Assembly (NCBI GenBank): GCA_000702085.1
Contig: KL370861.1
Location: forward strand, 126,911 to 190,910
DNA from: Lachnospiraceae bacterium P6A3
GTDB taxonomy: Bacteria; Bacillota; Clostridia; Lachnospirales; Lachnospiraceae
Reading direction: 5' to 3'
Length of the DNA stretch: 64,000 nucleotides
A program made the position numbers and the translations under genes. The notes under the pieces are model-generated. The model had not been told where the DNA came from and did no database searches. It was given only the letters and a program-made list of their open reading frames with translations. Shown here one piece after another: positions 43,653 through 61,473 of the stretch (positions within the stretch are counted from its first letter, which is position 1; every line of letters begins with the position of its first letter).

Positions 43653-43702
43653 ATGATATGACAATGGATGTGCATGTTCATGTACATCTGTTTTGTTATT
43701 CT
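43653..43702. promoter_or_regulatory. Dyad 1: shared divergent operator-promoter
   Basis: GGATGTGCA-N6-TGTACATCT at 43666-43689. To the right, 7 bases, then TATTCT (43697-43702); to the left on the minus strand, 7 bases, then TATCAT (43658-43653). One dyad therefore fits both the minus gene (start 43615) and the plus gene (start 43726). Confidence 0.8.
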
Positions 43703-43725
43703 GTAATCAAAATGGAGGGCTGATT

Positions 43726-44190
43726 ATGCTGATTACAGCTGCACTAATGGTGTGCACCAAAAAGTACCCTGATATTTCTGAAGAAGAAGTAAAAAAAAGT
43801 ATATGGACTAGTTTGTGGATTACGTTAAGTGAAGAACCTGATATACAGTTTATTGCGGGGATCAACTGTATCTCACAAATATGGGCAGCGGAGGAGTTGA
43901 TACGGGTTGCTAAGAAAGAAGACGGATGCCAAGTGTCTATTATTTGTTCTTATCCGGGGATGGAAAACAAGTGGGACACTATAATGAAAAAACGGATAAA
44001 GAAAATTCTAAAAGCTGCTGACGAAGTCGTTTATTTGGCCAAGAATCCAAATAAGCAGTCTTTTGAATTGTGTAATGAATGGCTTTTAAAGCATTCTGAT
44101 ATGCTGATACCAATTTATATAGGAAACAAAGAGCAATATGATAAAATAATACAGATGGCAATAAGTACGGATCGTGGTTATACAGGGTAA
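43726..44190 (+). CDS. SLOG-like protein (DUF1273 relative, shortened)
   Basis: 154 aa. [27 protein letters not shown]...[15 protein letters not shown] aligns with the DUF1273 protein at 50687 (FITGMQRGVDIWAAEL...FRGMENQWEKDWQKR), but the N-terminal TGHRP motif of that protein is missing. SLOG proteins bind nucleotide-like ligands and often work with conflict effectors. Strong RBS TGGAGGG. First gene after dyad 1. Confidence 0.72.
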
Positions 44191-44197
44191 AAGGACT

Positions 44198-44731
44198 ATG
44201 GCTAATGATTATAGAGAAACAAGTAAATATATTGCACTTATCCTTCGCCATAAACCTGAAACTATAGGAATTAAGCTAGATGAACATGGTTGGGCGGATG
44301 TGTCTGAATTGATTTCAGGAATAAGCAAAACCCACCTGATTGACATGGAAATTCTTGAAAAGATTGTTTCCGAGGATGAAAAGCAGAGATATTCATTTAA
44401 CGAGGATAAAACACTGATCCGAGCTAATCAGGGACATTCCATTCCAGTTGATGTTGAACTTGAAGAAGCAGAACCACCTGAGATTCTGTATCATGGAACA
44501 GGTGAAAAATACGTTTCATCAATTGATGATCAGGGGCTGATTCCAAAATCTAGGTTATACGTTCACTTGTCCAAAGATATTGAAACGGCTGTAAAGGTTG
44601 GACAAAGACATGGAAAACCTGTAGTTTACGAGGTGAGAAGCGGAGACATGAATAGAGCCGGATATAAGTTTTATATATCTGTAAATGGGGTATGGCTGAC
44701 CAAATCGGTTCCGGCGGAGTATCTTATCTGA
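44198..44731 (+). CDS. kptA: RNA 2'-phosphotransferase (KptA/Tpt1)
   Basis: 177 aa, standard size. Conserved blocks: [30 protein letters not shown]-type [11 protein letters not shown] and [23 protein letters not shown] hold the Arg-His-Arg-Arg residues that transfer an internal 2'-phosphate from RNA to NAD+. In bacteria the natural substrate is uncertain, but it is an RNA-end/RNA-repair enzyme. Starts 8 bases after the SLOG-like gene with AAAAGGA; same unit. Confidence 0.93.
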
Positions 44732-44899
44732 TTATTCTCAGATGAAAGAAAAGCTTGCGATGGAAGTTGTTTCTGCGGAAGTTAATTGGAAACTTCGTTG
44801 AAACTGACAGAATGGGCAGTGGGGCAGCTTACGTTAATAGTCGGAGCGACATATATACGAGTGATGTTACGATGTTATGTCAAGGGAAGGATTACACAA

Positions 44900-45979
44900 A
44901 TGTCTCTTTCGATGAATAATAAGGAATCAAAAGTAATGATAACTGAAGAAATGCAAAAGAAGATTCAAGCTCAGAAAGTTATAAATGAACAGGTCAAGGC
45001 TGCACGTGAGGCTTGTAAGCCAACAACATGTATTATGTGCGGGAAACCCTTAAATGGGGGAATATGTAATTCCCATTCAGTTCCGCAAATGGTTCTTAAA
45101 ACGCTAACAGAAAAGGGAATGATTTATAATAAGAATAGAATAGCAGATGTTAATTATTTTAAAGGGGAAGTTGGATTAAACCAAGCTGGAACATTTAGAA
45201 TCATTTGTAGAGAGTGTGACAGTAATGCATTTAAGGAATATGAAGATCCGGAAAAGATTCTACAAAAGCCCGATACAATTATGCTTGCTGAGATTGCTAT
45301 AAAAGATGTGATTTTAATGTTAAGTACTAGAGACTATGAGTATGAGACATATGTAAAGATGTTAGATGAACACAAGATATTAAACCTGCCTCAATTGATG
45401 AAGGTAAACAGGCTGGATTTTAGAGACTATTGTTCGGATTTTAATGATTTCATGACTATAGCAACAGGTGTATCTAATTATGGTTTTAATGTCTTGTATT
45501 GGAATGTTCTTCAATATGTAGTTCCGATTGCTGTTCAGGGAATGTTTACGATATATAAGGACATGTATGGTGAAATAATAAATGATCCCCATGATATAGA
45601 TGAAAACAAAAAAATCGAGTCAGTGCATTTGGCTATTTTTCCCTATGATGGGAAGACTGCAATAACGCTCTTTAGTTTAAAAAAAGATAAAAGTTATAGA
45701 ATAATAATGCATCAAATGAACTCATCATCAGAAGAAGAAAAATTGAGATTCATAAATTATTTAGTATTTGCCTTGGCAGATAATTACTACATGTCAAAAT
45801 CGATTAGTGATGAGTTTCTAAATAATGAATATGTGATTAAGCTTAGCAGAGAGTATTTGGAGCACCCAAACTACGGTATGCCTATTATTGAGAAAAAGGA
45901 TATTAAGTATTTTTCAAATGCACCGGTAAGTCCACAGGATCTTCCGGTAATATTTGATGAAAAATATGCGCTTACATAG
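44900..45979 (+). CDS. Hypothetical protein with HNH-like zinc-binding start
   Basis: About 359 aa. Near residue 40: CIMCGKPLNGGICNSHSVPQ and, 50 residues later, ICRECDS. CxxC...SHxxP...CxxC is the layout of zinc-structured HNH-like nucleases, but catalytic residues cannot be assigned. The rest is helical and unrecognised. ATG 44900 is preceded by AAGGGAAGGA; the upstream TTG frame is not credible. AT-rich codon use compared with neighbours. Confidence 0.6.
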   Translation: MSLSMNNKESKVMITEEMQKKIQAQKVINEQVKAAREACKPTTCIMCGKPLNGGICNSHSVPQMVLKTLTEKGMIYNKNRIADVNYFKGEVGLNQAGTFRIICRECDSNAFKEYEDPEKILQKPDTIMLAEIAIKDVILMLSTRDYEYETYVKMLDEHKILNLPQLMKVNRLDFRDYCSDFNDFMTIATGVSNYGFNVLYWNVLQYVVPIAVQGMFTIYKDMYGEIINDPHDIDENKKIESVHLAIFPYDGKTAITLFSLKKDKSYRIIMHQMNSSSEEEKLRFINYLVFALADNYYMSKSISDEFLNNEYVIKLSREYLEHPNYGMPIIEKKDIKYFSNAPVSPQDLPVIFDEKYALT

Positions 45980-45989
45980 TTCTGCCTCC

Positions 45990-46050
45990 ATTTTGAAAAA
46001 GTAGGTTTTTGGTAGGAAAGTGGTAGGTTTTGAGTATTCTTTTTCAAAAT
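45990..46050. repeat. 12-bp inverted repeat with GGTAGG repeats
   Basis: ATTTTGAAAAAG (45990-46001) is perfectly inverted at 46039-46050 (CTTTTTCAAAAT). Between them GTAGG, GGTAGG and GGTAGG occur in the same direction. It resembles a recombinase site or mobile-element end, and it is followed by two short ORFs typical of element cargo. Confidence 0.55.
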
Positions 46051-46068
46051 AGGGGTGATATATTTACA

Positions 46069-46260
46069 ATGGACAAAGCGAACGGGAAAACAAAAAAACA
46101 CTCGATCCGCCGAGTTCATTTTCTTTTGCAAAAGAATATCGGCATTGATGAGCGTCAGATCTTGACTTCGAAAGAGGTTGTGAGCCTGGCACTTTTTTCA
46201 TGCCATCAACCCAAGGCCGAGGATGACGATCCGGAGATGACACAAAAAGCGAAAGGATAA
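46069..46260 (+). CDS. Small hypothetical protein
   Basis: 63 aa, basic start and acidic end (SIRRVHFLLQKNIGIDERQ ... DDDPEM). RBS GGGGTGA. No family recognised. It sits directly behind the inverted-repeat structure and in front of a truncated ORF. Confidence 0.5.
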   Translation: MDKANGKTKKHSIRRVHFLLQKNIGIDERQILTSKEVVSLALFSCHQPKAEDDDPEMTQKAKG

Positions 46261-46269
46261 AAACACACT

Positions 46270-46329
46270 ATGGATTATGAATCATTCAAAGAGAAGTTTG
46301 TAGAGGACTTAAAGGACAGGCTTGAATGA
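46270..46329 (+). pseudogene. N-terminal stub resembling DUF5688
   Basis: 19 codons, MDYESFKEKFVEDLKDRLE then stop. The start resembles DUF5688 proteins, common in Lachnospiraceae elements, but more than nine tenths of a normal gene is missing. Confidence 0.4.
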
Positions 46330-46363
46330 ATAATTAGATCTGAGGAAAAATATACTTGCTGAT

Positions 46364-46400
46364 GGATGTGCATATTTGTGCACATCCATTTTTTTATTAT
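46364..46400 (+). promoter_or_regulatory. Dyad 2 with -10 box
   Basis: GGATGTGCA-N6-TGCACATCC (46364-46387), 7 bases, TATTAT (46395-46400). The start codon of the next gene is about 50 bases further. A T run in the spacer also lets the RNA hairpin act as a terminator for upstream transcripts. Confidence 0.82.
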
Positions 46401-46452
46401 TACATCAACAAATATGAAGACGCGATAGGAATGGCTTAATACGGAGGTATAT

Positions 46453-47424
46453 ATGGCATTAATAAATGATAATGACATGGAAGTGATTATGAAAGCTAAT
46501 CAGGAAGAAGTAATACGAAAAATGCTCAATGACCGACTTTATAGTCTTATCAAACTTCCGGTAAAAAAGCCTGACAAAATCATTGGTAAGAGTTCATCAA
46601 GCATATTTGTCTCGTATATGAATGATTACCTGGAGAGATCACTTGCAATAAGAGAAGTTGGATCGAAAGCGTTGTATGAAGATTGTGAATATTACTTGTT
46701 TATGTACCATACTAGGGGGATTGATGAAGAAAAAAAGGGTATATTTCAACATATTCTGGACAGGCACATGACTCAAATTGGCGAAGTGACGTATCCATCA
46801 ATAGATGAATTGATAGACTTCCTTAAGGGTAAAGAGTTTGCTCTTATAACCAATTATATGCATTACGGGAACATGGAAGCATTGAAAACCGACGATTTTA
46901 TTGAGGATATATTGCTCTTGTGGGAAAACCGTGAGGATGAATTTATCCGTCGGGAAGAAAAATGCGAAATCAGAATATATCTAACCGGGATGGATGATGG
47001 ACAGGTGAATGATTTAAACCTTATGAGACCTATGGATGTTCGTAAACTGAAGTTGGAACAGCAAATATTACGTCTTCTTAAGGATAAAAGTCAAAAGTTC
47101 AATCCTGAAGAGTATTACTCCGTAGAATACGCGACTTGGTCTGAAATTGTTCAGTCTTCTAACTTCACGACCAGATTTCATAGTAATACAGCCTGGGAGG
47201 CTGATCCGATTAATTATGTTTATGTGAGAATATCTGCTTTTGTTCTGCCGGGCAAGGTATCTTTAGAGGACATTGATAATACACCACAAAAGAGTGTCAC
47301 AACAGATTGTGATGGAAAGAATTATTTTATTGATTCAATTCATTTTAATTCAGATATCTTTTCTGATATTGCGGAATTCGAAAAATATATGGATTCATAT
47401 TTTTGCTATTTTGGAATGGATTAA
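46453..47424 (+). CDS. Hypothetical protein, dyad-controlled
   Basis: 323 aa, soluble. No recognised family. Features: charged N-terminus, tyrosine-rich middle (EDCEYYLFMYHTRGID), a WENREDEFIRREEKCEIRIYLTGMDDGQVNDL segment and a C-terminal beta-rich part. Excellent RBS (ACGGAGG). First gene of the unit behind dyad 2. Confidence 0.65.
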   Translation: MALINDNDMEVIMKANQEEVIRKMLNDRLYSLIKLPVKKPDKIIGKSSSSIFVSYMNDYLERSLAIREVGSKALYEDCEYYLFMYHTRGIDEEKKGIFQHILDRHMTQIGEVTYPSIDELIDFLKGKEFALITNYMHYGNMEALKTDDFIEDILLLWENREDEFIRREEKCEIRIYLTGMDDGQVNDLNLMRPMDVRKLKLEQQILRLLKDKSQKFNPEEYYSVEYATWSEIVQSSNFTTRFHSNTAWEADPINYVYVRISAFVLPGKVSLEDIDNTPQKSVTTDCDGKNYFIDSIHFNSDIFSDIAEFEKYMDSYFCYFGMD

Positions 47425-47438
47425 TGGAGGAAAACTAT

Positions 47439-47870: not shown

Positions 47871-47962
47871 GATAATGCATCCTGTAGAACAAAAGCCTTA
47901 AAACATAAGGAAACAGAGTTTTGGTGGGCCCTGGATTGAGGCGTCATAGGAGAGACCGGATC

Positions 47963-49093: not shown

Positions 49094-49107
49094 TCATTTT
49101 TCTGATA

Positions 49108-49144
49108 GGATGTGCGCAAATATGCACATCCTATAGTTTATCTT
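49108..49144 (+). promoter_or_regulatory. Dyad 3 with -10 box
   Basis: GGATGTGCG-N6-TGCACATCC (49108-49131), 7 bases, TATCTT (49139-49144). The downstream sequence TTTACATCAACA is also present behind dyad 2, showing that leader DNA was copied as well as the dyad. Confidence 0.82.
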
Positions 49145-49189
49145 TACATCAACAGATAGGAAAACACTAAGAAAGGAAAAGGTGACTAT

Positions 49190-50185
49190 ATGCAGATGAA
49201 CATGGGTATGTTTGCTATCACAGCAAGAAAAATTGAAAAAGAAGAATTTGATCATATTATGGCAGAGCATGCTAAATGGCTTTTGGATAAAGAAACCGGG
49301 AAAAGAGCAGATCTTAGTGATAAAAGCTTCAGCAAATGGGATCTTTCAGGACTTGATTTGTCGTATGCAGTTTTAGACGGAGCGGACTTATCGTTTGCCA
49401 ATCTGAGAGGAACTAATCTTACTCATGCTTCATTAAGACATGCTTTTATGCATGGTGTTAATCTTTCCGAAGCAAATATTGAGGATGCAGATTTAGCTTT
49501 GGTAGATGCATGCGAAGCAGTTCTGGATGGTGTTAAGGGAAAAGGAGCTATTTTCTCATTCTCAACCATGTGGAATTGTGATGTTAAAGGGGCTTATTTG
49601 GATGATGCTGCATTTATGGAGGCCAAATTATGTGATTGTGATTTTACCGGATCTAATCTTGAGAATGCTGTTTTTGCAGGTGCTGATCTTGATGATGCTA
49701 TTTTTGTCGGCACAAATCTGAAAAATGCAGATTTTATGTATGCCATAAGATCTTTTTGGTGTGATTTTACTAATGCCGAAATGACCGGAGTGAGACTTGA
49801 AGATGTTGATATTGATCCCAAGAATCTTAAGGGAGCAAAGGGATACAGTATTCCTTTATATTGCCCCGAGGAAGGTTCATTCATTGCATGGAAGAAGTGC
49901 AGAGATGGAAAAGTCCTCAAGCTGATGATACCTGAGGATGCAAAGAGAAAAGGAGAGTCCATATGCTCCTGCAGAGCTTCAAAGGTTGTGGTTCTGGATA
50001 TATTTGACAAGGACGGAAAATCTGTTGATCAGGCATTTAGTTTATATGATCCTTCTTTTGAATATGTTAAGGGAGCAACAGTATTCCCTAAGGTGATGGA
50101 TTATCACAATCTGGGTGATGTTGAGGGTATATATTTTGTGCTGTCTCGCTCGGAAACTGATCGTTATCACGAAAAAGATGAATAG
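49190..50185 (+). CDS. Pentapeptide-repeat protein with extra C-terminal domain
   Basis: 331 aa. Residues about 40-210 are A(D/N)LxX pentapeptide repeats (LSGLDLSYAVLDGADLSFANLRGTNL and following), forming a right-handed quadrilateral helix. The C-terminal ~110 residues (FIAWKKCRDGKVLKLMIPEDAKR..., CRASKVVVLDI) match the domain often fused to such repeats (DUF5758-like). Some pentapeptide proteins mimic DNA; here the role is unknown. RBS AAAGGAAAAGG. Confidence 0.85.
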   Translation: MQMNMGMFAITARKIEKEEFDHIMAEHAKWLLDKETGKRADLSDKSFSKWDLSGLDLSYAVLDGADLSFANLRGTNLTHASLRHAFMHGVNLSEANIEDADLALVDACEAVLDGVKGKGAIFSFSTMWNCDVKGAYLDDAAFMEAKLCDCDFTGSNLENAVFAGADLDDAIFVGTNLKNADFMYAIRSFWCDFTNAEMTGVRLEDVDIDPKNLKGAKGYSIPLYCPEEGSFIAWKKCRDGKVLKLMIPEDAKRKGESICSCRASKVVVLDIFDKDGKSVDQAFSLYDPSFEYVKGATVFPKVMDYHNLGDVEGIYFVLSRSETDRYHEKDE

Positions 50186-50194
50186 AGAGGTCTT

Positions 50195-50671
50195 ATGAAG
50201 TATATCTTTCTGGATGTAGACGGTGTTTTGAACAATGAAAATACAAAAGAGAGTAATCCGAGCGGGTATGTCGGCGTTTCTATGAAACTCATTCGCAATC
50301 TGGCTAAGATTGTAAAAGCCACTGATGCAAAGATTATCTTAACGAGTGATTGGAAGCACGGCTGGAGTGAGATCCGTTTCTGCTGTGATGATGATGTCAA
50401 TTATCTCCTGGATAAACTAAAAAAGTGTGGCTTGAGAATCCATAATCGTACTTATGACGAGAAACTTGAGGATTACTTTTTTACGGACAGAGGCGTGGGA
50501 ATACGGCATTTTTTGGAATCTCGCAATGATGTGGATGGATACGTGATAATTGACGATCACGTATTTGCTGATTTCGATGTGGAACAAAAGACTCATTTTA
50601 TACATACTGATTCGAAAAATGGGCTTACGGAAGATGATGTAAAAAAAGCAATTGAAATTCTATCGGAATAG
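50195..50671 (+). CDS. HAD-family phosphatase of the RNA-repair (SAK) type
   Basis: 158 aa. HAD motif I FLDVDGVLNNE, motif II TSD (IILTSDWKHG), and acidic motif IV VIIDDHVFADF. Short cap-less HADs with this DGVLN start occur in the RNA-repair Swiss Army knife proteins, where they process RNA end phosphates; a simple small-molecule phosphatase is the alternative. Nine bases after the pentapeptide gene, RBS AGAGAGG. Confidence 0.82.
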   Translation: MKYIFLDVDGVLNNENTKESNPSGYVGVSMKLIRNLAKIVKATDAKIILTSDWKHGWSEIRFCCDDDVNYLLDKLKKCGLRIHNRTYDEKLEDYFFTDRGVGIRHFLESRNDVDGYVIIDDHVFADFDVEQKTHFIHTDSKNGLTEDDVKKAIEILSE

Positions 50672-50686
50672 GGAAGGAAAAAAATC

Positions 50687-51184
50687 ATGAAAAAGATCGA
50701 TATAGAACATGCAGTTTCATTTACCGGGCACAGGCCAGAACGACTTGATATGTCTGAAGAGAAGGTTTTCAGCTGGTTGGATGAACAGATTCGAAAAGCT
50801 GTAGATGATGGCTATACAGATTTTATTACTGGAATGCAAAGAGGAGTAGATATTTGGGCTGCAGAGTTAGTGATGAAACTTAAGGAAGAAAGAAAAGATG
50901 TAAGTATCCGCTTATTTGCTGCTGTTGCGTTCAGAGGAATGGAGAATCAGTGGGAGAAAGACTGGCAGAAAAGATATCATGCCATTTTAAAAGCCTCGGA
51001 TGATATTACTTATGTCAGCGACAGGCCGGGGCGAGCGGCGTTCTTTAAACGCAATGAGTGGATGGTAGATAGATCCTCCAAAATTCTTGGTGTATACACC
51101 GGTGCTCCTGGTGGAACGAAGGAAACCATTATTTATGCGAGAAATCATGGAAAAGATGTAATTCTTATAGAGGACAAATTATGA
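50687..51184 (+). CDS. SLOG family protein, DUF1273-like
   Basis: 165 aa. Full DUF1273/YpsA-type sequence: FTGHRPERLD, FITGMQRGVDIWAAEL and DRSSKILGVYTGAPGGT, a Rossmann-like nucleotide-sensor fold. SLOG proteins act as nucleotide-ligand sensors or nucleosidases in conflict systems. A shortened relative lies at 43726. Overlaps the next gene by 4 bases. Confidence 0.85.
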   Translation: MKKIDIEHAVSFTGHRPERLDMSEEKVFSWLDEQIRKAVDDGYTDFITGMQRGVDIWAAELVMKLKEERKDVSIRLFAAVAFRGMENQWEKDWQKRYHAILKASDDITYVSDRPGRAAFFKRNEWMVDRSSKILGVYTGAPGGTKETIIYARNHGKDVILIEDKL

Positions 51185-52224: not shown

Positions 52225-52234
52225 TTTGCAAAAG

Positions 52235-52271
52235 GGATGTGCAAGATAATGCACATCCCCTTTTTTATGAT
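52235..52271 (+). promoter_or_regulatory. Dyad 4 with -10 box
   Basis: GGATGTGCA-N6-TGCACATCC (52235-52258), 7 bases, TATGAT (52266-52271). The next start codon is 39 bases after the -10 box. Confidence 0.83.
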
Positions 52272-52310
52272 TAGTACAACAGAAGATGATTGTGGCTATG
52301 GAGGTTGCTT

Positions 52311-54383
52311 ATGATATTTAGAAAATATGACATTTTAATTGATTCAGACGAGACTTTTCGTAAGGCAGGCGATATCGAAAGCGAGGAGTCGGATTTATTG
52401 TCTGCTCCCAGAAGAATAAGAAGATCAAGATTATCTGTTCCCGAAAAGCTTAACTCTGATTTTGGGAAGGATTTTTCTAAAAATGGATTGTTCTTCCCGA
52501 TAATAACCAATCATTATTTAGAACCGGAGCTGGGAGATGTATTTACCGTTCATTTAGCATATGCACCGGAACTTATAGATGTGCATAATTGCGAGCGGGA
52601 AATACTTCGTGCTATTAATGGGATAAGAATAATAAGTTCTGAGGAAATGATTATCCGATCTTTTCTTTCAGATATACGTGAGTCACCGTATTTGAATGGT
52701 GGGGACCTTTCTTTTGCTGAAAGTGAACTGGGGATTGATTCTTTGTTTAGAAGACGCGGTGGAAGCTGCCTAGCGAAAGAGGATATGGTGCAGGAATCCC
52801 ATGTTGGATTAACGGCAATAAAAAAACGTGCCTCAGAGATAATGGGATCTTCTTCTTTGTTTGACGAAATAAGTCGGATTTATTCTAAGGATAATGAAAG
52901 AAAGTATTATGGACACCCTGTACATTACCTGATAACCGCCTGTGGGTTTTCTATGGCGCAGGATATTATCGATATTCTTCTAGTTTCGCTTAAGTCAAAC
53001 AAAAGGCTTTTGGGGAATAGGGTTATTTGCCTTAGCGATATCGAAAGATTTGCTTTTGATGAGGCGGATTTTCAAAGCTACTTTGAGGTGTCTTCAGGGT
53101 CGATTCTTGTTATTGATGTAACGGATAAGAATTCGAATAATAATCACGCTGTAGGCAATAATGGATTATATGAATTTTATGGAAAGATGTTAAGAAAGTA
53201 TGGAAAGAATACTTTGTTTATTTTTATCGATACCTCGGCAAATGCTGAGTCATCTGTGGGTATGATGGGAAATATTTTATCTGCTGCAGATATTGTAAGA
53301 ATTACGGAAGGGGAGGGGAATTATGAAACCTCGCTCAAGTATCTTAAGAAACTGATTAACAAATCTGGATTTTCGAGCCTCGATAAGTGTGATTATAAAA
53401 GTTTACTGCCCCGTAGATCTTTTTATAAGGTGAGCGAGATATATGACATATACAATAATTGGTATTCTAATGGTTTAAGAAGCCATGTATATCGCGCATA
53501 TCGAAATTTTGAGACATATAAGATTGAGAAAAAGGAATGCAAAACCAAGGCTTACGAGCAACTCAAAGAGATGATCGGTCTTTCCGAAATCAAGGCAGTC
53601 GTGGATGAAATTATCGACACTGCTAAAATTCGAGGAATAAGAAAAAGCATGGGGTTTGATGATTCCAATCAATCCTTGCATATGCTTTTTGCAGGGAATC
53701 CGGGTACAGCTAAAACGACAGTTGCAAGGCTGTTATCGGAGATTTTAAGGGATGAAGGTGTTCTTGAAAATGGTCATCTCGTTGAATGCGGGAGAGCAAA
53801 TCTAATTGGTAAATATGTTGGATGGACTGCGAAGATAGTCGAAGAGAAGTTCAGAAGTGCCAGAGGCGGGATTCTGTTTATAGATGAAGCCTATTCATTG
53901 GTGGATGACAGCCATACTTATGGTGATGAGGCAATCAATACTATAGTTCAGCTGATGGAGAACTACAGGGAGAATGTAATAGTTATATTTGCCGGATATC
54001 CCGATAAAATGAAAGCATTTCTTGAGCAGAATGAAGGGTTGAACAGCAGAATATCCTTCCATCTGAATTTTCCAGATTATTCAGCTGACGAATTGACAGA
54101 AATAATGAAATTGATGTCGAAAACCAGGGGATATACGTTGTCTGATGAGGCAATTGGTAAATGTCATGATATTTGTTCTGAAGCCTGTTCTCAAAAGGAC
54201 TATGGTAACGGAAGATTTGTTAGAAATATGCTTGAACAGGCTTCTATGAGGCAGGCAAGGCGCATTTTGAGAGATCATGATGGTAAGAACATAGATAAGA
54301 AGATTGCTGCAGAGCTGATTGCAGATGATCTTGAAATGCCACATATTGCCCAAAGTAGAAGTACTCGGGTTATAGGCTTTTAG
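52311..54383 (+). CDS. CbxX/CfqX-type AAA ATPase with long N-terminal region
   Basis: 690 aa. The C-terminal third is a CbxX AAA+ module: SLHMLFAGNPGTAKTTVAR (P-loop about 462), ILFIDEAYSLVDD (Walker B about 521), VIFAGYPDKM and arginine-finger region GLNSRISFHLNF. Such ATPases remodel protein complexes (Rubisco activase, type VII secretion EccA, SpoVK). The first ~420 residues are unrecognised and may carry the substrate specificity. ATG 52311 has GGAGG upstream; the open frame from 52290 is too far from an RBS. Confidence 0.87.
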   Translation: MIFRKYDILIDSDETFRKAGDIESEESDLLSAPRRIRRSRLSVPEKLNSDFGKDFSKNGLFFPIITNHYLEPELGDVFTVHLAYAPELIDVHNCEREILRAINGIRIISSEEMIIRSFLSDIRESPYLNGGDLSFAESELGIDSLFRRRGGSCLAKEDMVQESHVGLTAIKKRASEIMGSSSLFDEISRIYSKDNERKYYGHPVHYLITACGFSMAQDIIDILLVSLKSNKRLLGNRVICLSDIERFAFDEADFQSYFEVSSGSILVIDVTDKNSNNNHAVGNNGLYEFYGKMLRKYGKNTLFIFIDTSANAESSVGMMGNILSAADIVRITEGEGNYETSLKYLKKLINKSGFSSLDKCDYKSLLPRRSFYKVSEIYDIYNNWYSNGLRSHVYRAYRNFETYKIEKKECKTKAYEQLKEMIGLSEIKAVVDEIIDTAKIRGIRKSMGFDDSNQSLHMLFAGNPGTAKTTVARLLSEILRDEGVLENGHLVECGRANLIGKYVGWTAKIVEEKFRSARGGILFIDEAYSLVDDSHTYGDEAINTIVQLMENYRENVIVIFAGYPDKMKAFLEQNEGLNSRISFHLNFPDYSADELTEIMKLMSKTRGYTLSDEAIGKCHDICSEACSQKDYGNGRFVRNMLEQASMRQARRILRDHDGKNIDKKIAAELIADDLEMPHIAQSRSTRVIGF

Positions 54384-54431
54384 TCGGAAATGATATAATA
54401 ACGGTATATATGACATTTGAGGATAAATGTA

Positions 54432-54719
54432 ATGAAAATCTGGGTTGATGATCTGAGAGAAGTTCCAAAAGGATATATAGGAACAAAATCGGTTAATGAG
54501 ACCATATCTCTTATAGAGAAGATGGAAATAGAAGGTGAACAGATAGAACTTATAGATCTGGATCATGATCTTGGAGATTATGTATCTCAGGGTGGTGATG
54601 CCATAAAGATTCTTGATTACCTTGCAGAAAGGGGGACTTTTTACCCTATTTTAATTCATACTGCTAATCCTGTTGGAAGAGCAAATATGGAAAGAATGAT
54701 CCAAAGGTATTGGCCATGA
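54432..54719 (+). CDS. cREC: cyclic-phosphate processing receiver-like protein
   Basis: 95 aa. KIWVDDLREVPKGYIGTKSVNE, LIDLDHDLGDYVSQGGDAIKI and PILIHTANPVGRANMERMI match the cyclic-phosphate processing receiver domain, described from RNA-repair gene neighbourhoods. The acidic cluster DLDHDLGD would bind metal. Likely acts on or senses 2',3'-cyclic phosphate RNA ends, as inferred for the family. Short gap after the AAA gene, with a TATAAT-like box at about 54396. Confidence 0.85.
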   Translation: MKIWVDDLREVPKGYIGTKSVNETISLIEKMEIEGEQIELIDLDHDLGDYVSQGGDAIKILDYLAERGTFYPILIHTANPVGRANMERMIQRYWP

Positions 54720-54741
54720 CTATCAAGTGAGGAGAATGTGC

Positions 54742-55371: not shown

Positions 55372-55387
55372 AAAGTAGACTAAGAAG

Positions 55388-56899
55388 ATGATTAGTTTAT
55401 CCAAATCCAAATACTGTAATTTCTGGCAATGCCCCAAAATGGCCTGGCTTAATAAGTATAAACCGGAGGAAAAGACTGAAGATTCCGGTTTGGAAGCTGT
55501 GCTTACAAGAGGAAATGAAGTTGGCGATCTCGCCATGAGCCTGTTTGGTGATTATGCAGAGGTTACAGTATTCTCAGAGGATAAACTTGATCTATCTGCA
55601 ATGATTAAAAGAACAAAAGAAGAGATTGAAAAGGGTACGGAAGTAATCTGTGAAGCCTCTTTTTCATATAATGGCCTTTATTGCGCTGTTGATATCCTGA
55701 AAAAAGAAGATGATGGATATGCAATATATGAGGTAAAGAGCTCAAGTGAAGGCGAAGAAGAGCCTGAACCTAAGGCGGTATATGTTGCCGATATCTCATA
55801 TCAGAAGTATGTTCTTGAACATTGCGGAATAAAGGTAACAGATACTAATCTGGTAACTCTTAATAAAGACTATATTCGAGAAGATGAACTTGACATTCAA
55901 AAGCTGTTTCTGATTATCAATGTGGATGATCGCGTCAGGGATGAGATTGCTAATGTAGAAACTAATCTGGCAAAGGCAGAAATAATCCTTAATGATGAAA
56001 CTGAGCCGGATTACAATCTGGCTGAAAGATGTCATGATCCTTATGATTGTCAATTCTGGAATTATTGCACCAAAAAGTTGCCTGAGAAGAACGTATTTAG
56101 CCTCTACCGTATGCCTTTTAAAAAGAAAATCGAATTCTACAGAAAAGGCATCATAGACTATAAGGATCTGCTAATATGTGAAGATATCACAAACAATACA
56201 CAGATCCGTCAGATGGAGTTTTCCTTATATGATAAAGGAACATATGTTGAACCGGATAATATAAGGGATTTCCTGAAGAGTCTGTCATATCCTTTATATT
56301 TCCTGGATTTTGAAACAATGCAGCCAGCAGTACCGCAGTTTAAAGGAACTAAGCCTTATCAGCAGATTCCTTTCCAGTATTCCCTTCATTATATTGAAAA
56401 AGAAGGAGATAAACTGAAGCATAAGGAGTTCTTGGCTGTGTCTGGAGAGGATCCTCGAAGGGCAATTGCTGAAGCACTTTGCAGGGATATACCGATGAAT
56501 GTGTGTACAACTGCATACAACAGATCCTTTGAATGTACCCGTCTCAAGGAGTTGGCTGAAACATATCCGGATCTGTCAGAACATTTGCTTAATATACGTG
56601 ATCATATAGTTGACCTGCTCATACCATTCCAGAGCGGATATTATTACAATAAAGCTATGGGTGGATCGTTCTCAATAAAAAGCGTTCTTCCTGCTATCTT
56701 CCCCGATGATCCGGAACTGGATTATCACAACTTGGAAGGGGTTCATAACGGATCTGAGGCTATGAATATCTTCCCTCAGATTCAGTTCATGGAACCTGAG
56801 GAGCAGGAGAGGGCAAGACGTAATCTTTTGAAATATTGCGAACTTGATACCTATGCCATGGTTAAGGTGTGGCAAGAATTGATTAGAGTCATCAAGTAA
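55388..56899 (+). CDS. DUF2779 nuclease: Cas4-like part plus DnaQ-like exonuclease part
   Basis: 503 aa. N-terminal half resembles PD-(D/E)XK/Cas4 proteins: Cys in KYCNFWQCP, EVKSS (about residue 118) and a second Cys cluster CHDPYDCQFWNYC (about 220-230), which could hold an Fe-S cluster. C-terminal half begins YFLDFETMQPAVP (about 304), a DnaQ-like DxE motif, with later TAYNRSFECTRL and the final LLKYCELDTYAMV, the typical DxxxD end of RNase H-fold exonucleases. Probably processes DNA or RNA ends. Weak RBS. Last gene of the dyad 4 unit. Confidence 0.8.
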   Translation: MISLSKSKYCNFWQCPKMAWLNKYKPEEKTEDSGLEAVLTRGNEVGDLAMSLFGDYAEVTVFSEDKLDLSAMIKRTKEEIEKGTEVICEASFSYNGLYCAVDILKKEDDGYAIYEVKSSSEGEEEPEPKAVYVADISYQKYVLEHCGIKVTDTNLVTLNKDYIREDELDIQKLFLIINVDDRVRDEIANVETNLAKAEIILNDETEPDYNLAERCHDPYDCQFWNYCTKKLPEKNVFSLYRMPFKKKIEFYRKGIIDYKDLLICEDITNNTQIRQMEFSLYDKGTYVEPDNIRDFLKSLSYPLYFLDFETMQPAVPQFKGTKPYQQIPFQYSLHYIEKEGDKLKHKEFLAVSGEDPRRAIAEALCRDIPMNVCTTAYNRSFECTRLKELAETYPDLSEHLLNIRDHIVDLLIPFQSGYYYNKAMGGSFSIKSVLPAIFPDDPELDYHNLEGVHNGSEAMNIFPQIQFMEPEEQERARRNLLKYCELDTYAMVKVWQELIRVIK

Positions 56900-56918
56900 T
56901 AGAATTACATGCTAGTAG

Positions 56919-56955
56919 GGATGTGCAGAGTGATGCACATCCTTTTTGTTATGTT
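56919..56955 (+). promoter_or_regulatory. Dyad 5 with -10 box, in front of WYL regulator 1
   Basis: GGATGTGCA-N6-TGCACATCC (56919-56942), 7 bases, TATGTT (56950-56955). It precedes a WYL regulator gene, which suggests autoregulation. The stem plus TTTTT also fits a terminator for the DUF2779 unit. Confidence 0.83.
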
Positions 56956-57035
56956 CTATGTATACGAGGCACAAAAGTGCTAAAATAAGGGAGGAAATGC
57001 GTACCATGAACCGTTCTTTTTCGAAAGGGGCATAT

Positions 57036-58091
57036 ATGGCGTCTAATCAGAACAAAAACCTCAGTTTATTCTATATTCTTAAAATTCTTCAGATGTATTC
57101 CGATGAAAACCACAGATTATCTCAAAAGGAGATCGTAGATCTTCTCAGACGAGATTTTGATATGGAAGTTGATCGACGAACTGTAAAGAGTAGGTTAATG
57201 GATCTAGTGGATCTTGGGTATGAAATTGAATCCCAGGAGACTAATCGAATGACTATGAACCCTAAGACTGGTGACAGGGAGGATAGTAATATCACGTCCA
57301 ATTACTACCTGATTAGGGACTTTTCAAATCCGGAACTGAGACTGCTTATAGATTCTTTGCTATTCTCTAAGCATTTACCCTACAGCCAGTGCAAGGAACT
57401 TGTAGAAAAGCTGGAAACTCTGTCGAATAAATACTTCAAGTCTCATATGGCATATATTTCCACTATGCCGGAGGATAAGACAAACAATAAGCAGGTATTT
57501 TACAACGTAGATGCACTTGATGAAGCTATCCAGGCAAAAAAGAAGGTCTCATTCAAGTATCTTGAATACGGTACTGATAAAAAACAGCACGTGAAGTGTA
57601 CAGAAGATGGAACGGAAAGAGTTTACGTGGTTAGTCCTTATCAGATGGCGGCAAAAGAAGGCAAATACTATCTGATCTGTAATTATGACCCTTATGGAGA
57701 TGTTTCAAACTACAGAATTGATCGAATTAAAGATATAAAGATACTTGACGAGAAGATTAAACCTTTTAAGAATCTTGAGTGGGCGAATAAGAATGATCTA
57801 AATTTGGCGGAATACATGAAAAGACATGTATATATGTATTCAAGTCCAGATTCACTTGTTAAGTTTAGAATTACTAAACCAATGATAAGCGATATCATTG
57901 ATATGTTTGGAAAAGACGTCAGATTCTCTGATGAAACTGAAAAGACCGTGTGTGTTTCTGTAAATGTAAATGAACAGTCCATGATACAGTTTGCCAAGAA
58001 TTATGCTCCGGATGTGGTTATACTAGAACCGGAATCCTTAAGAAAAAAGGTAAAAGACGAGCTGAAAAATGGATTTAAGGCATATGAATGA
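57036..58091 (+). CDS. WYL-domain transcriptional regulator 1
   Basis: About 351 aa. N-terminal winged helix (RLSQKEIVDLLRRDFDMEVDRRTVKSRL), WYL domain (YVVSPYQMAAKEGKYYLICNYDPYG...NYRIDRIKDI) and a WCX-type C-terminal extension. WYL proteins sense nucleic-acid-like or nucleotide ligands and regulate DNA-damage, phage-defence and CRISPR genes. ATG 57036 has AAAGGGG upstream and makes the N-terminus line up with its relative at 61516; ATG 57006 behind GGAGG is the alternative. Confidence 0.9.
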   Translation: MASNQNKNLSLFYILKILQMYSDENHRLSQKEIVDLLRRDFDMEVDRRTVKSRLMDLVDLGYEIESQETNRMTMNPKTGDREDSNITSNYYLIRDFSNPELRLLIDSLLFSKHLPYSQCKELVEKLETLSNKYFKSHMAYISTMPEDKTNNKQVFYNVDALDEAIQAKKKVSFKYLEYGTDKKQHVKCTEDGTERVYVVSPYQMAAKEGKYYLICNYDPYGDVSNYRIDRIKDIKILDEKIKPFKNLEWANKNDLNLAEYMKRHVYMYSSPDSLVKFRITKPMISDIIDMFGKDVRFSDETEKTVCVSVNVNEQSMIQFAKNYAPDVVILEPESLRKKVKDELKNGFKAYE

Positions 58092-58108
58092 CTAAGTGAG
58101 GATTTCAA

Positions 58109-58969
58109 ATGACCGAAATAGAGTTTTACAACTATACAAAAGAAAAATTGAACTCTTTGGCTGAAGAGAGAGGGGTAAAGAATCTCAATCGATATTACGA
58201 ACTGACAGATTTTGCTAAAGGAAGTTTTCTTAATGCTTATGAAGGAATAAATCAGGTATTTGCTCAATTGGCATTCCATGCACAGAATGCAACAATGCTT
58301 TCGAATATTGTGAAATTTGAAAGTAATATTAGTTTTTTGGATAGTGTATTATGCGGTTTTGATCCTGCTGAGTTTCTGAATAAATATAGCAAATCTTCAG
58401 AAGTGGTTGAAACATTACGATATTCAGATGCTAATCCAGATGGTCTCAGGTGGAATACTCAAAAATCTAATACACGACCGGATCAGTTGATTATCAGATA
58501 TGCTGAGGCTTTAATATATGGAGCAATATATTTAAGGTCTTTTAAAACAAAAAAAGACGTTCTTGATGATCTGCTTAGTCATTATCCAAATAAAGACTAT
58601 GAGAAACTGATTAGATATTTTAGAACTAACAATCCAAAAGGATTTAGTGTTGCATTAACATGTGATTTCCTTAAAGAATTAGACGAGGCCTTTTCTGATT
58701 TGCCTAAGCCTGATGTTCACATAAAACATACTTTGTGTGCGTTTTATAATCGTGATAAGAATTATTATTCTTCAGAAAAACGGGAATTGGAATGCATACA
58801 GGATATGCAGAATATAACTAAGGTGGTTAATGAATCGCTGCCAAATGAACACTTAACTGTATACAAATTAGATAAAATGATATGGTTGATATGTTCGAGT
58901 AAGTTCTACCTTGATCATATCGAGGATCCTAAGAGTGATTATTTAAGTGGTATTAGAGCAAACAATTAG
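58109..58969 (+). CDS. Hypothetical protein, possibly HhH-GPD-like
   Basis: 286 aa. The segment GFSVALTCDFLKELDEAFSDLPKPDVHIKHTL resembles the region around the catalytic Asp of HhH-GPD DNA glycosylases (PxD-hxxxh), followed by KLDKMIWLICSSKFYLD. The N-terminal two thirds are helical and unrecognised. No iron-sulfur Cys cluster. A base-excision role would be inference. Starts 17 bases after WYL 1; same unit. Confidence 0.6.
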   Translation: MTEIEFYNYTKEKLNSLAEERGVKNLNRYYELTDFAKGSFLNAYEGINQVFAQLAFHAQNATMLSNIVKFESNISFLDSVLCGFDPAEFLNKYSKSSEVVETLRYSDANPDGLRWNTQKSNTRPDQLIIRYAEALIYGAIYLRSFKTKKDVLDDLLSHYPNKDYEKLIRYFRTNNPKGFSVALTCDFLKELDEAFSDLPKPDVHIKHTLCAFYNRDKNYYSSEKRELECIQDMQNITKVVNESLPNEHLTVYKLDKMIWLICSSKFYLDHIEDPKSDYLSGIRANN

Positions 58970-58992
58970 ATGAAAAATATGTTTATATTAAA

Positions 58993-59016
58993 GGATGTGT
59001 ACATTTGTACACATCC
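58993..59016. promoter_or_regulatory. Dyad 6 between convergent genes, no good -10 box
   Basis: Perfect dyad GGATGTGTA-N6-TACACATCC, bounded by A/T, between a plus gene (ends 58969) and a minus gene (ends 59028). At the fixed 7-base distance only ATCCTT (right) and TAAACA (left) occur. This copy probably works as a terminator or is a leftover of an earlier gene arrangement. Confidence 0.65.
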
Positions 59017-59027
59017 TATCTTTATCC

Positions 59028-59423
59028 TTATTCTTTTTCCTCGAAGCTGTAATCATCTACTTTAGAGACTCTGTTTTCGAGAATGGCTATTTTCTCTTCA
59101 TATTCTTCAATTACTTCTTTCATTGGACGTTTCTTTTTTTCACGTTCGAGGATTTGTCCCTTTTTCTCATAACCTTCCGACAAAGGAATTTTGCCGCTTA
59201 GCATATCATATCTGTTGACATAAAGATCCCAATAGTAACCATTGAGGATGTTAATAGCTTCTATAGGCTGAATATGACATCTTTCCTGAAGTTCGATTCT
59301 AAGCTTTCTTCTTTCTCCAAGATCTTTTCCATCGTTTAATGGTAGCATATCAGCCCTTCTCTTATACTCGCGACATATTTCAATCGTCAGCCATTCAAAA
59401 TCTTCATTATTATTTGTTTCCAT
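59028..59423 (-). CDS. Hypothetical protein with C-terminal coiled coil
   Basis: 131 aa. Highly charged; residues about 95-131 (MKEVIEEYEEKIAILENRVSKVD) form a likely coiled coil. The middle (LRIELQERCHIQPIEAINILNGYYWDLYVNRYD) has a conserved look, but no family recognised. RBS CGGAGGAAAAA on the minus strand. Its own dyad (7, reversed) lies upstream. Confidence 0.65.
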   Translation of the reverse strand: METNNNEDFEWLTIEICREYKRRADMLPLNDGKDLGERRKLRIELQERCHIQPIEAINILNGYYWDLYVNRYDMLSGKIPLSEGYEKKGQILEREKKKRPMKEVIEEYEEKIAILENRVSKVDDYSFEEKE

Positions 59424-59480
59424 TTTTTCCTCCGATTCTATTGAAAAATTCATTTTTTTAGTGAATCAATTTCTTTAAAG

Positions 59481-59517
59481 ATGATAGGAAATTGAATATG
59501 CATTTTTATGTACATCT
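59481..59517 (-). promoter_or_regulatory. Dyad 7 (minus) with -10 box
   Basis: On the minus strand AGATGTACA-N6-TGCATATTC (59517-59494), 7 bases, TATCAT (59486-59481). The most diverged right arm of the set, but the 6-base centre and 7-base distance are kept. It points at the coiled-coil gene. Confidence 0.75.
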
Positions 59518-59529
59518 ATAGAAAGGGAA

Positions 59530-59566
59530 GTATGCGCAAAAAAATGCACATCGATTTGAATAATAT
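59530..59566 (+). promoter_or_regulatory. Dyad 8 (plus) with -10 box
   Basis: GTATGCGCA-N6-TGCACATCG (59530-59553), 7 bases, TAATAT (59561-59566). Lies back to back with dyad 7, one for each divergent gene, and leads into the FtsH-like gene. Confidence 0.77.
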
Positions 59567-59608
59567 GTAGTCAGTAAACAAACACTGATTATGTAAAGGA
59601 GACTTATT

Positions 59609-60877
59609 ATGAGCGAATTTGATAAGATTCTTGGTTATGAGAATACAAAATTGGAACTTGAGCGTTTGAGTGATATTCTCAAAAATCCATCAAAGTACAA
59701 GAAACTTGGAGTGAGCATTCCCAGCGGAATTATGCTGGCAGGAGATCCCGGTTTGGGCAAGACTCTTATGGCAAAATGCCTCATTGCTGAAGCTGGCTGT
59801 AAAGCTTTTACCCTAAGGAAAGATAGGCCTAACGGTTCGTTTGTTGATGAAATAAGAAAAACATTTGACGAAGCTAAGACTGTGACACCTTCTATTGTGT
59901 TTCTTGATGATATGGATAAGTTCGCAAATGAAGATGATTATCATAGAAATGCAGAGGAATATGTGACAATTCAGTCCTGTATAGATGATTGCAAGGGCTT
60001 AGGAATATTTGTTATTGCCACAGTTAATGAAAAGCACCAGCTTCCCGATTCGCTGTGCAGGAGAGGAAGGTTTGACAGAATCATAGACATTGATGTCCCT
60101 GAAGATGAGGATTCGAGTAAGATCATTGAATTCTATCTTTCTAATAAAAAAATAGAAAAGAAAGTCGATCTTGAAGAAATATCAAGAATTATGGCTGGCA
60201 ATTCATGTGCTGATATTGAGAGTATGATAAATGAAGCTGGAATATATGCAGGGTTTGAAAATAGAAAGGCGATTGGGCGTAATGACTTAATTGATGCAGT
60301 TTTGAAGCATGTTTATGATTCGGGAGAGTGCCAGGTTAATGAAGGAGATGAGGCTGACATAGGCGTGCTTATCCACGAAGCAGGCCATGCGGTTGTATCT
60401 GAAGTGCTTGATCCCGGAAGTGTTACTATGATTTCTGCTGCTAAAATTGCCGGTAACATTGGAGGGTTTGTGAAGACAAAGCATATTCCTGCTAGAAAAA
60501 GAACTGTGAAAACCAGTGAAATCGGTATTATGAGAGCGCTCGGCGGGAAGGCGGCGACGGAAGTAGTATTGGATGTTGCTGACTTTGGCTGCAATTCGGA
60601 TATACGTAAAGCATATGATAACGTTTATGAAATAATTGATGATGTCTGCGCTTATGGATTTGAATCTTTTGAGAGAATGGATGGCTCTAATTTCTTGAGT
60701 GAAAATAAAGATAGGAGAGCAGTCTCTGAACTCGATAATTACTATCGCAAGGTGAAAAATATTTTAATCAGCAATAGACCTTTTCTCGATGCTATTGTAG
60801 ATGCTTTGAAGGAAAAGCGCGTTTTGACGTATAAGGATATTGAGAAAGTTAAAACTATGGTTTCTATTGTTGCATAG
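59609..60877 (+). CDS. Soluble FtsH-like AAA protease
   Basis: 422 aa. AAA+ domain: GDPGLGKT (about residue 45), IVFLDDMDK (Walker B, Asp in place of the usual Glu), arginine-finger region RRGRFDRIIDIDVPDE-like. It is followed by an M41 zinc peptidase domain with HEAGHAVV (His about 256) and the third-ligand region GCNSDIRKAYDN. Unlike FtsH (about 600-650 aa), it has no N-terminal membrane segments, so it should be a cytoplasmic protease or unfoldase with a private target. RBS AAAGGAG. Confidence 0.88.
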   Translation: MSEFDKILGYENTKLELERLSDILKNPSKYKKLGVSIPSGIMLAGDPGLGKTLMAKCLIAEAGCKAFTLRKDRPNGSFVDEIRKTFDEAKTVTPSIVFLDDMDKFANEDDYHRNAEEYVTIQSCIDDCKGLGIFVIATVNEKHQLPDSLCRRGRFDRIIDIDVPEDEDSSKIIEFYLSNKKIEKKVDLEEISRIMAGNSCADIESMINEAGIYAGFENRKAIGRNDLIDAVLKHVYDSGECQVNEGDEADIGVLIHEAGHAVVSEVLDPGSVTMISAAKIAGNIGGFVKTKHIPARKRTVKTSEIGIMRALGGKAATEVVLDVADFGCNSDIRKAYDNVYEIIDDVCAYGFESFERMDGSNFLSENKDRRAVSELDNYYRKVKNILISNRPFLDAIVDALKEKRVLTYKDIEKVKTMVSIVA

Positions 60878-60913
60878 TGATTAAATAAATTATGTAATAC
60901 AAGTGTTTCTAAC

Positions 60914-60950
60914 GGATGTGCAAGTCTCTGCACATCCGTTTATTTATTGT
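60914..60950 (+). promoter_or_regulatory. Dyad 9 with -10 box
   Basis: GGATGTGCA-N6-TGCACATCC (60914-60937), extended by AAC/GTT to a 12-bp arm, 7 bases, TATTGT (60945-60950). Confidence 0.82.
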
Positions 60951-60983
60951 ATAAAAGAAATAATTACAATAAGGAGGCTGACA

Positions 60984-61352
60984 ATGAGTATTAAAAAAGA
61001 ATGTAAAACAAAGGACTATGAAAATAATAGAAATCATTCAAAGATAAGATATCGGAAAGGCGACATGGTTATTTATGATGGTAGATATTCTGTTCATCTC
61101 CGATATTCCCCATGGAAATATGACGCTCCATATGTTGTTGGGAAGTATGATCGTTTACCACATTTGAAATTGAATGAACTAGCAGAAACAAACAAAACCA
61201 TTGTAATTCATAAGAATAATCATGAAGAAGCAGATGCTGTGTGCAGGATGTTATATGCAAATTGTAATATTTCCGACTTTATACCGCCGGAAACATATGC
61301 ATCAGTGGCTCGAATTTATGCTTGGGCATATTACTATATGGGATTGCTTTAA
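60984..61352 (+). CDS. Hypothetical protein
   Basis: 122 aa, basic, Tyr- and His-rich. RYRKGDMVIYDGRYSVHLRYSPW has a small beta-domain look; the C-terminus is helical and aromatic (IYAWAYYYMGLL). No family recognised. RBS AAGGAGG. Alone between dyad 9 and a terminator. Confidence 0.62.
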   Translation: MSIKKECKTKDYENNRNHSKIRYRKGDMVIYDGRYSVHLRYSPWKYDAPYVVGKYDRLPHLKLNELAETNKTIVIHKNNHEEADAVCRMLYANCNISDFIPPETYASVARIYAWAYYYMGLL

Positions 61353-61409
61353 TGATTATATACTTGTTCTCCCTGATTATTGTTGAATAACCATTGGGTT
61401 TGCAGTTCC

Positions 61410-61435
61410 AGCACCCTGCTATATGCAGGGTGTTT
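61410..61435 (+). terminator. Rho-independent terminator
   Basis: CACCCTGC (61412-61419) / GCAGGGTG (61425-61432), 5-base loop, then TTT. The stem sequence is nearly the same as that of the terminator at 39989. Confidence 0.7.
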
Positions 61436-61473
61436 GTATGTACAAAAAAATGTACTTGAGATATGATTATAAT
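61436..61473 (+). promoter_or_regulatory. Dyad 10 with -10 box, in front of WYL regulator 2
   Basis: GTATGTACA-N6-TGTACTTGA (61436-61459); here the best -10, TATAAT (61468-61473), is 8 bases away instead of 7. It is the most diverged copy and precedes the second WYL gene. Confidence 0.68.

Follow-up and report, generated by a model that had tools for sequence, protein, structure and literature searches.

The closest described counterpart of the system reported here is the regulon of DriD in Caulobacter crescentus, a homodimeric WYL activator whose palindromic site overlaps the -35 region, with sigma region 4 at its centre, a constant distance to the -10 box and a poor -35 (PMC12340889, a preprint). 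SiwR of Mycobacterium smegmatis likewise activates as a WYL homodimer, and its site, an imperfect palindrome of 19 bp, lies between -35 and -10 (PMC10693628); the mycobacterial PafBC, an example of sigma adaptation, is a WYL activator that lies between sigma region 4 and promoter DNA and has single-stranded DNA as ligand. Two WYL proteins of defence islands are repressors, namely CapW, with sites that overlap the -10 (PMC9122588), and BrxR, with a box downstream of it (PMC9122601). RNA repair genes have a dedicated ligand-sensing activator in RtcR, which carries a CARF domain (PMC7790460). According to a general prediction that gives no operators, WYL regulators sense damaged RNA and thereby control nucleic-acid repair (PMC9503650). 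Here we describe a 24-bp dyad that recurs ten times in a gene island of Lachnospiraceae bacterium P6A3, together with two WYL regulators encoded in that island, and we consider it probable that the dyads are operators at which these regulators, as homodimers, activate promoters lacking a -35 box.

By our comparison, the frame of the island dyads is that of DriD. The two systems share a homodimeric WYL activator (predicted for the island), a palindrome over the -35, a constant -10 distance and a poor -35, and also a divergent promoter region and a regulator architecture of winged helix-turn-helix (wHTH), helical, WYL and WCX parts. They differ in the half-site, which is ATACGAC-N7-GTCGTAT for DriD and GGATGTGCA with a 6-bp gap here, and in the targets, those named for DriD being DNA-damage genes whereas here one island holds 8-10 sites. 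SiwR differs in controlling an adjacent operon. PafBC is a heterodimer with one HTH on a -26 motif, whereas the island dyads conserve both half-sites. CapW and BrxR are also island-encoded WYL dimers on palindromes, but their sites overlap or follow the -10, while the island dyad ends 7 bp before it. The rtc operon differs in its regulator, RtcR with a CARF domain acting with sigma-54, where the island has WYL regulators.

The window analysed is a stretch of 64,000 nucleotides (nt) on contig KL370861.1 (forward strand positions 126,911-190,910; assembly GCA_000702085.1). Genes were called with a simple longest-open-reading-frame (ORF) script, and the predicted transcription start sites (TSS) of the window promoters were taken from an alignment of 70 promoters described below. 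A hexamer that follows the dyad after 7 bases is said to stand at +7. The ten dyads are the following.

Dyad 1, 43666..43689, divergent: -10 TATTCT 43697-43702 on the plus strand, predicted TSS 43709; -10 TATCAT 43658-43653 on the minus strand, predicted TSS 43646.
Dyad 2, 46364..46387, plus strand: -10 TATTAT 46395-46400, predicted TSS 46407; heads an operon from ATG 46453.
Dyad 3, 49108..49131, plus strand: -10 TATCTT 49139-49144, predicted TSS 49151; heads the pentapeptide/DUF5758 operon (ATG 49190).
Dyad 4, 52235..52258, plus strand: -10 TATGAT 52266-52271, predicted TSS 52278; heads the AAA/AAA_lid_6 operon (ATG 52311).
Dyad 5, 56919..56942, plus strand: -10 TATGTT 56950-56955, predicted TSS 56962; heads the WYL1 operon.
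Dyad 6, 58993..59016, no strand: between convergent gene ends, without TANNNT at +7; a terminator-like hairpin.
Dyad 7 (weak), 59494..59517, minus strand: -10 TATCAT 59486-59481, predicted TSS 59474; heads the gene w18 (59453-59028).
Dyad 8 (A6 centre), 59530..59553, plus strand: -10 TAATAT 59561-59566, predicted TSS 59573; heads the AAA/M41 gene at 59609.
Dyad 9, 60914..60937, plus strand: -10 TATTGT 60945-60950, predicted TSS 60957 (a G there); heads an FlhB-C-like gene (ATG 60984).
Dyad 10 (degenerate, A6 centre), 61436..61459, plus strand: -10 TATAAT 61468-61473 at +8; heads the WYL2 gene at 61516.

The original prediction, made from the letters of this stretch, had claimed ten such dyads, and all of them were recovered at these coordinates with a 6-base centre each. 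Its further claim of a -10 at exactly 7 bases in eight copies was borne out as well, with TANNNT at +7 in 8/10 dyads and at +8 in the last (61436). A -10 was found on each strand of 43666, in agreement with the view that one dyad serves the divergent pair at 43.6 kb both ways, and the pair at 59.5 kb indeed has one dyad each, 59494 with its -10 on the minus strand and 59530 with its -10 on the plus strand. Three island dyads (59494, 59530 and 61436) differ from the main dyad form, the last by 5 mismatches in a hand count. An 18-base dyad pattern with at most 3 mismatches gave 8 matches in the window, all inside the island, against 0.03 expected, and a 16-base pattern gave 10 where 0.22 were expected, nine of them in the island and the tenth at 4894.

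The promoter frame was examined independently of the dyad sequence by scanning 41 loci (613 kb: 40 fetched regions, not all of which have dyads, plus the island portion of the window) for 9-bp inverted repeats with at least 8 pairs, with gaps of 3-10 tabulated against distances of 0-20 to TATNNT. The cell of gap 6 and offset 7, an inverted repeat centred 19 bp before TATNNT, held 54 cases, where the other cells had a mean of 5.7; registers of the same centre were also high (36, 58 and 48) and the next highest value was 13. The same cell held 1 case in 312 kb of control DNA. For sequence-defined dyads, TANNNT stood at +7 in 69/78; many of the loci had been fetched partly by a pattern that contains the -10, which inflates both this count and the geometry scan and so weakens what they say for our reading. 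As some loci were found with the help of the -10, the fairest tests are a search with the dyad alone and loci reached by WYL protein alone, and both gave the same frame.

For the promoter anatomy, 74 dyad orientations yielded 70 unique 37-mers, some of them near-identical between sister genomes. An A stands 7 nt after the -10 in 55/70 promoters, with a pyrimidine just before it in 60/70, and judging from this alignment the pyrimidine-A is likely the transcription start. If transcription starts at that A, the dyad covers -43 to -20 with its centre at -31.5, and the N6 falls where the -35 box would be, as expected from the earlier proposal that the dyad occupies the -35 region. The accompanying claim that no TTGACA-like -35 fits was supported over the 70 promoters, since a best match of at least 4/6 occurred in 4/70 of them against 14% of shuffles, but two of the window dyads agree with it in 4 of 6 letters, through TGAACA at 43680 on the minus strand and TGTACA at 61439 on the plus strand, the latter pairing with a TATGAT that adjoins the TATAAT of dyad 10. 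MerR-type long-spacer promoters were considered and set aside, there being no good -35 at 16-18 bp, while longer spacers, which were not scored separately, would enter the conserved left half. Both half-sites are conserved position by position (left 31-35, right 25-35 of 35), as expected of a homodimer. A loose ribosome-site match and an open frame follow the predicted start in 64/70 promoters, and in 51 of the 64 they do so at 25-60 nt. In the window, several ORFs called from their first start codon begin before the predicted TSS, with better starts downstream at 43726, 52311 and 60984.

Across the whole genome (2.98 Mb), 25 sites matched the dyad with up to 3 mismatches. All 8 sites with at most 2 mismatches lie inside the island, which excludes generic terminators scattered over the genome, the alternative that the original prediction had raised against itself; of the 17 sites that have exactly 3 mismatches, the island holds a single one (59494), the remaining 16 being scattered. 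When the dyad was combined with the -10 (3 mismatches in total), 13/13 oriented matches in the genome fell in the island. The element is accessory, as judged by its rarity: a dyad with at most 1 mismatch was present in 1/30 same-genus genomes searched, and dyad plus -10 with at most 1 mismatch in 8/397 family genomes, P6A3 included, four of these with a single match. A reversed control pattern matched one of the 397.

The exact 18-base dyad, searched without the -10 in 84,980 species genomes, gave 36 stretches with 37 sites. TANNNT at +7 (in one direction) accompanied 16/22 sites of Lachnospiraceae and 0/15 in other records (Fisher p 6e-6), some genomes contributing more than one site and one minus-strand flank (L025) running off its contig. 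The Lachnospiraceae records include Hespellia, Oribacterium and Pseudobutyrivibrio, which we take to be members of the family. Nine stretches with a dyad came from viral contigs and served as control DNA only. Loci reached through a WYL protein alone contributed one promoter of the dyad frame at L166, two at L168 and six on plasmid pCY186. Independent genomes support the view that islands of this type share a regulon under dyad control, in which the dyad takes the -35 region and the -10 keeps a fixed place.

The two candidate regulators are encoded within the island.

WYL1 regulator, 56946..58091 (first-start ORF), plus strand: wHTH, helices, WYL and WCX.
WYL2 regulator, 61516..62499, plus strand: 41% identical to WYL1, with sequence matches to DriD structures.

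The true start of WYL1 lies after the predicted TSS, at 56997, 57006 or 57036. Pfam finds WYL and WCX domains in both proteins, the WCX of WYL1 just below the cut-off, and two further, more distant WYLs are encoded outside the island in the P6A3 genome. A structure model of WYL1 (mean predicted local distance difference test, pLDDT, 80; predicted template modelling score, pTM, 0.58) shows the wHTH, three helices, WYL and WCX. Foldseek placed DriD and PafBC as its best matches (8e-13 to 1e-8; DriD E 8e-13) and BrxR and CapW later (4e-6 to 4e-4). The family profile matched only DriD and PafBC chains in the PDB (9/9), where the sequence of WYL1 alone had no meaningful match.

In a tree of 41 WYL proteins, WYL1 groups with seven orthologs, each from an island whose dyads are of the GGATGTGCA form. 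WYL2 falls in a separate clade (WYL2a), and a third clade, WYL2b, is accompanied by C(A/G)ATGTGC(T/C) half-sites around an A-tract centre. At dyad position 9, WYL1 islands have A/G in 25/26 promoters and WYL2b islands have T/C in 17/20, and where one genome holds two islands (G333, C44 vs C74; G345, C23 vs C27) the flavour again goes with the clade. Half-site flavour mostly tracks the local WYL clade. Among genomes from the dyad-only search, a WYL1 homolog (E 1e-30 or better) was present in 10/12 with a +7 dyad and in 1/5 without. One locus, L125 (G252:C22:110000-124000), has the same frame with the other half-sites CGATGCACA-N6-TGTGCATCG and AGATGGGAA-N6-TACCCATCT; these lie in the island of a 61%-identical WYL1 homolog and are possible further operator codes.

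The original prediction had one regulator switch all units together. The shared dyad-controlled regulon stood, but a single regulator is too simple a view, given two paralogous WYLs and three deviating sites, 59494, 59530 and 61436, which stand at w18, the AAA/M41 gene and WYL2. In L122, L123 and L126, relatives of these three genes occur where the regulator is of the WYL2b clade and the dyads have an A-tract, and together with the deviating sites this makes two overlapping regulons likelier than one. The island therefore probably has two overlapping sets of sites for two paralogous WYLs, in which WYL1 would serve the GGATGTGCA sites and WYL2 would serve 59494, 59530 and 61436. Against such a split, AAA/M41 relatives (46-47%) also occur in the WYL1 islands L111 and L115.

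In the mechanism that we favour, the two half-sites would flank the place of the missing -35 (dyad positions 9-14 for a 17-bp spacer), and the two wHTH domains of a WYL dimer would grip the DNA on either side of sigma region 4. The dimer would hold RNA polymerase on the -10 fixed 7 bp downstream of the dyad, and transcription would begin at the pyrimidine-A 7 nt past the -10. The ligand of the WYL domain would be a signal of nucleic-acid damage, as it is for DriD and PafBC, and here may be single-stranded DNA or damaged RNA; the response would be the set of RNA/DNA-processing genes; WYL binding, activation and the ligand are what we infer here. The original prediction had left open a plain operator role, over which, in our analysis, the fixed spacing, the missing -35 and the closeness to DriD favour activation.

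A number of observations weigh against this mechanism. The loci L118 and L119 have the GGATGTGCA dyad with a WYL2a protein, and no WYL1 was found there. Genome G336 has three dyads of the frame, but its best WYL scores 277 bits, against 265 and 255 for the P6A3 non-island WYLs, in an island that begins at a contig end; genome G330 has one site with a weak -10 and no close WYL. Among the exact dyads of Lachnospiraceae, 6/22 are without a -10 at +7. A recognisable core precedes 10 of the 17 WYL2-type genes examined, and in five of the ten their own promoter is at +8 (window 61436, L122, L126, L127 and L166), the others being at +7 in three (L156, L157 and pCY186, whose WYL gene is assigned to this type by its site and is not among the tree proteins) and without TANNNT in two (L123 and L168). 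Template modelling (TM) scores between the WYL1 model and DriD are low (about 0.35), and the pTM of the model is the 0.58 given above. Neither an E. eligens plasmid nor, by eye, the eight loci around 44-50% WYL1 homologs in other families (L160-L165, L167 and L169) had a recurrent dyad of the island frame, intergenic in the case of the latter; the repeat common to L163, L164 and L167 sits within the WYL gene, and L165 has one other dyad, which fits both ways. Finally, a repressor with an operator that overlaps the core promoter could maintain a fixed spacing as well.

This last point leads to the alternative that survives best, although we regard it as unlikely, in which the WYLs are repressors like CapW and BrxR, the dimer on the dyad blocking RNA polymerase and leaving upon ligand binding. 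The compared WYLs of defence islands do repress (CapW, PMC9122588; BrxR, PMC9122601), and a dyad covering -43 to -20 would occlude sigma region 4. Their sites, however, overlap or follow the -10 and do not lie a constant 19 bp before it. Few promoters of the island type (4/70) offer a -35 that polymerase could use unaided, the spacing is constant while the half-site sequence varies, and the WYL1 structure model and the family profile are nearer to DriD and PafBC than to the repressors.

It is much less probable that the dyad is bound by a dimeric regulator other than WYL, of the CRP/FNR type or another, whose gene lies elsewhere. The dyads of G336 without a close WYL in the assembly would suit it, and the dyad core resembles the CRP site TGTGA-N6-TCACA. 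A centre at -31.5 is not known as a usual CRP activation position, however, and half-site flavour tracks the WYL clade even between the two islands of G333 and of G345. None of the 22 scanned island proteins was of the CRP/FNR type; the search for such genes did not extend beyond the island. We regard it as very improbable that the dyads are ordinary intrinsic terminators followed by -10 hexamers by chance: the six most GC-paired of 18 terminator-like sites (43.0-62.7 kb) are dyads, many are followed by a T-rich stretch and 58993 lies between convergent genes, but no operon ends on the divergent copies (43666 on its minus side, 59494 and 59530), the exact +7 hexamer, conserved start letter and conserved stem letters are unexpected for terminators, and the dyads are not spread over the genome.

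Apart from the activator role that we favour, many dyads may also terminate the operon that precedes them. The hairpins of the six most GC-paired dyads reach -12.7 to -14.8 kcal/mol. Among tandem dyads at most 80 bp from the upstream stop, 35/45 fit a terminator themselves and 1/45 has a separate one between, such short gaps leaving little room for one, and among those farther away 5/15 have a separate terminator. The 7-nt spacer holds a mean of 5.19 T in tandem cases (n=59) and 2.71 in divergent ones (n=7) by an automatic split; a second comparison set 65 'tandem' spacers, two divergent ones included, against 9 divergent spacers picked by hand, the divergent ones again being less rich in T. 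By inspection, a tandem promoter is just as rich in T when the upstream gene is far away as when it is close; this weakens the case for a terminator, and the T-tract may therefore serve the promoter. The 58993 dyad is a perfect palindrome with 11-base arms between the stops of genes ending at 58969 (+) and 59028 (-), a setting that the original prediction had passed over. It has no TANNNT at +7 on either strand and is not a promoter of the common form; with its place between convergent stops, a terminator is its best fit. Directly before the weak dyad at 61436, a GC-rich hairpin (GCACCCTGC...GCAGGGTG) followed by TTTG occupies 61415-61436, and a separate terminator seems to be present at this place, where the weak dyad cannot make a strong hairpin.

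A more far-reaching idea, which we put forward tentatively, is that one 24-bp element has three jobs, as WYL operator, as -35 substitute for the next operon and as terminator of the preceding one, with the T-rich spacer being both U-tract and -10 spacer. The 58993 dyad would keep the terminator job only, and the WYL clades would have evolved their own half-site codes on the same frame, giving insulated parallel repair regulons in one genome. If this is true, the same piece of DNA punctuates and switches each operon.

The genes of the island point to what is controlled.

43726..44190, plus strand: YspA-type SLOG protein.
44195..44731, plus strand: KptA/Tpt1 RNA 2'-phosphotransferase (E 7e-46).
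49190..50185, plus strand: pentapeptide repeats and DUF5758.
50195..50671, plus strand: HAD_SAK_2 domain (in Pfam, the HAD domain in Swiss Army Knife RNA repair proteins).
50687..51184, plus strand: YspA-type SLOG protein.
52311..54383, plus strand: CbbX/SpoVK-like AAA ATPase (scanned from 52290).
54417..54719, plus strand: cREC_REC, cyclic-phosphate-processing receiver domain.
55388..56899, plus strand: DUF2779 protein with a weak Cas4-like match.
59028..59453, minus strand: w18, without a Pfam match; relatives stand directly upstream of WYL2-type genes in L123 and L126.
59609..60877, plus strand: AAA and M41-like protein, an IetA-like AAA in PADLOC.

The end-healing side of RNA repair is represented by KptA, HAD_SAK_2, cREC and SLOG, while no RNA ligase family and no RtcA or RtcB was among the 22 island proteins scanned with Pfam. 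PADLOC named no complete defence system among 20 island proteins; its strongest matches were the WYL and IetA-like AAA models, with weak ones to Cas3c, Cas4, TRIP13, mad8 and two PDC candidates. A 2016 paper of Burroughs and Aravind reportedly deals with RNA repair. KptA, cREC and SLOG proteins are known or predicted to act on RNA ends and ADP-ribose products (PMC9503650). The islands of relatives have DnaE/PHP-like proteins directly behind a dyad (L109 and L122) and, in L116, an SNF2 helicase and a PcfJ protein behind dyads; a UvrD-PDDEXK protein (L114), a DnaE/PHP protein (L121) and a metallo-beta-lactamase/RMMBL protein two genes past the WYL (L126) are in the island and not directly behind a found dyad. 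The sense of the regulon is nucleic-acid damage or conflict repair.

The A-tract version occurs on plasmid pCY186 of Butyrivibrio proteoclasticus B316 (L170, NC_014390.1:124067-155047, reversed), a region reached by protein search, with six +7 dyad promoters around the second WYL gene. These dyads head BPR_RS19115 (AAA, upstream of mcrC), the WYL gene BPR_RS19065, BPR_RS19050 (dyad at L170:22972), BPR_RS19045 (then dnaX), BPR_RS19035 and the AAA gene BPR_RS19030.

A partial search of open PubMed Central full text returned no description of such a regulon. The dyads turn the general prediction of PMC9503650 into a concrete regulon with predicted operators, promoters and starts, and with a plasmid version in B. 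proteoclasticus B316. Since the half-site code changes on a frame that stays constant, the system is a natural experiment on two questions: how DNA is read by WYL activators, and how promoter geometry is constrained when activation does without a -35. The dyads also mark candidate damage-response genes among proteins without a Pfam match. Outside the dyad island, the window encodes at 36449-39445 an AEP-TOTE primase/helicase/PLD protein of the TOTE conflict-system type.

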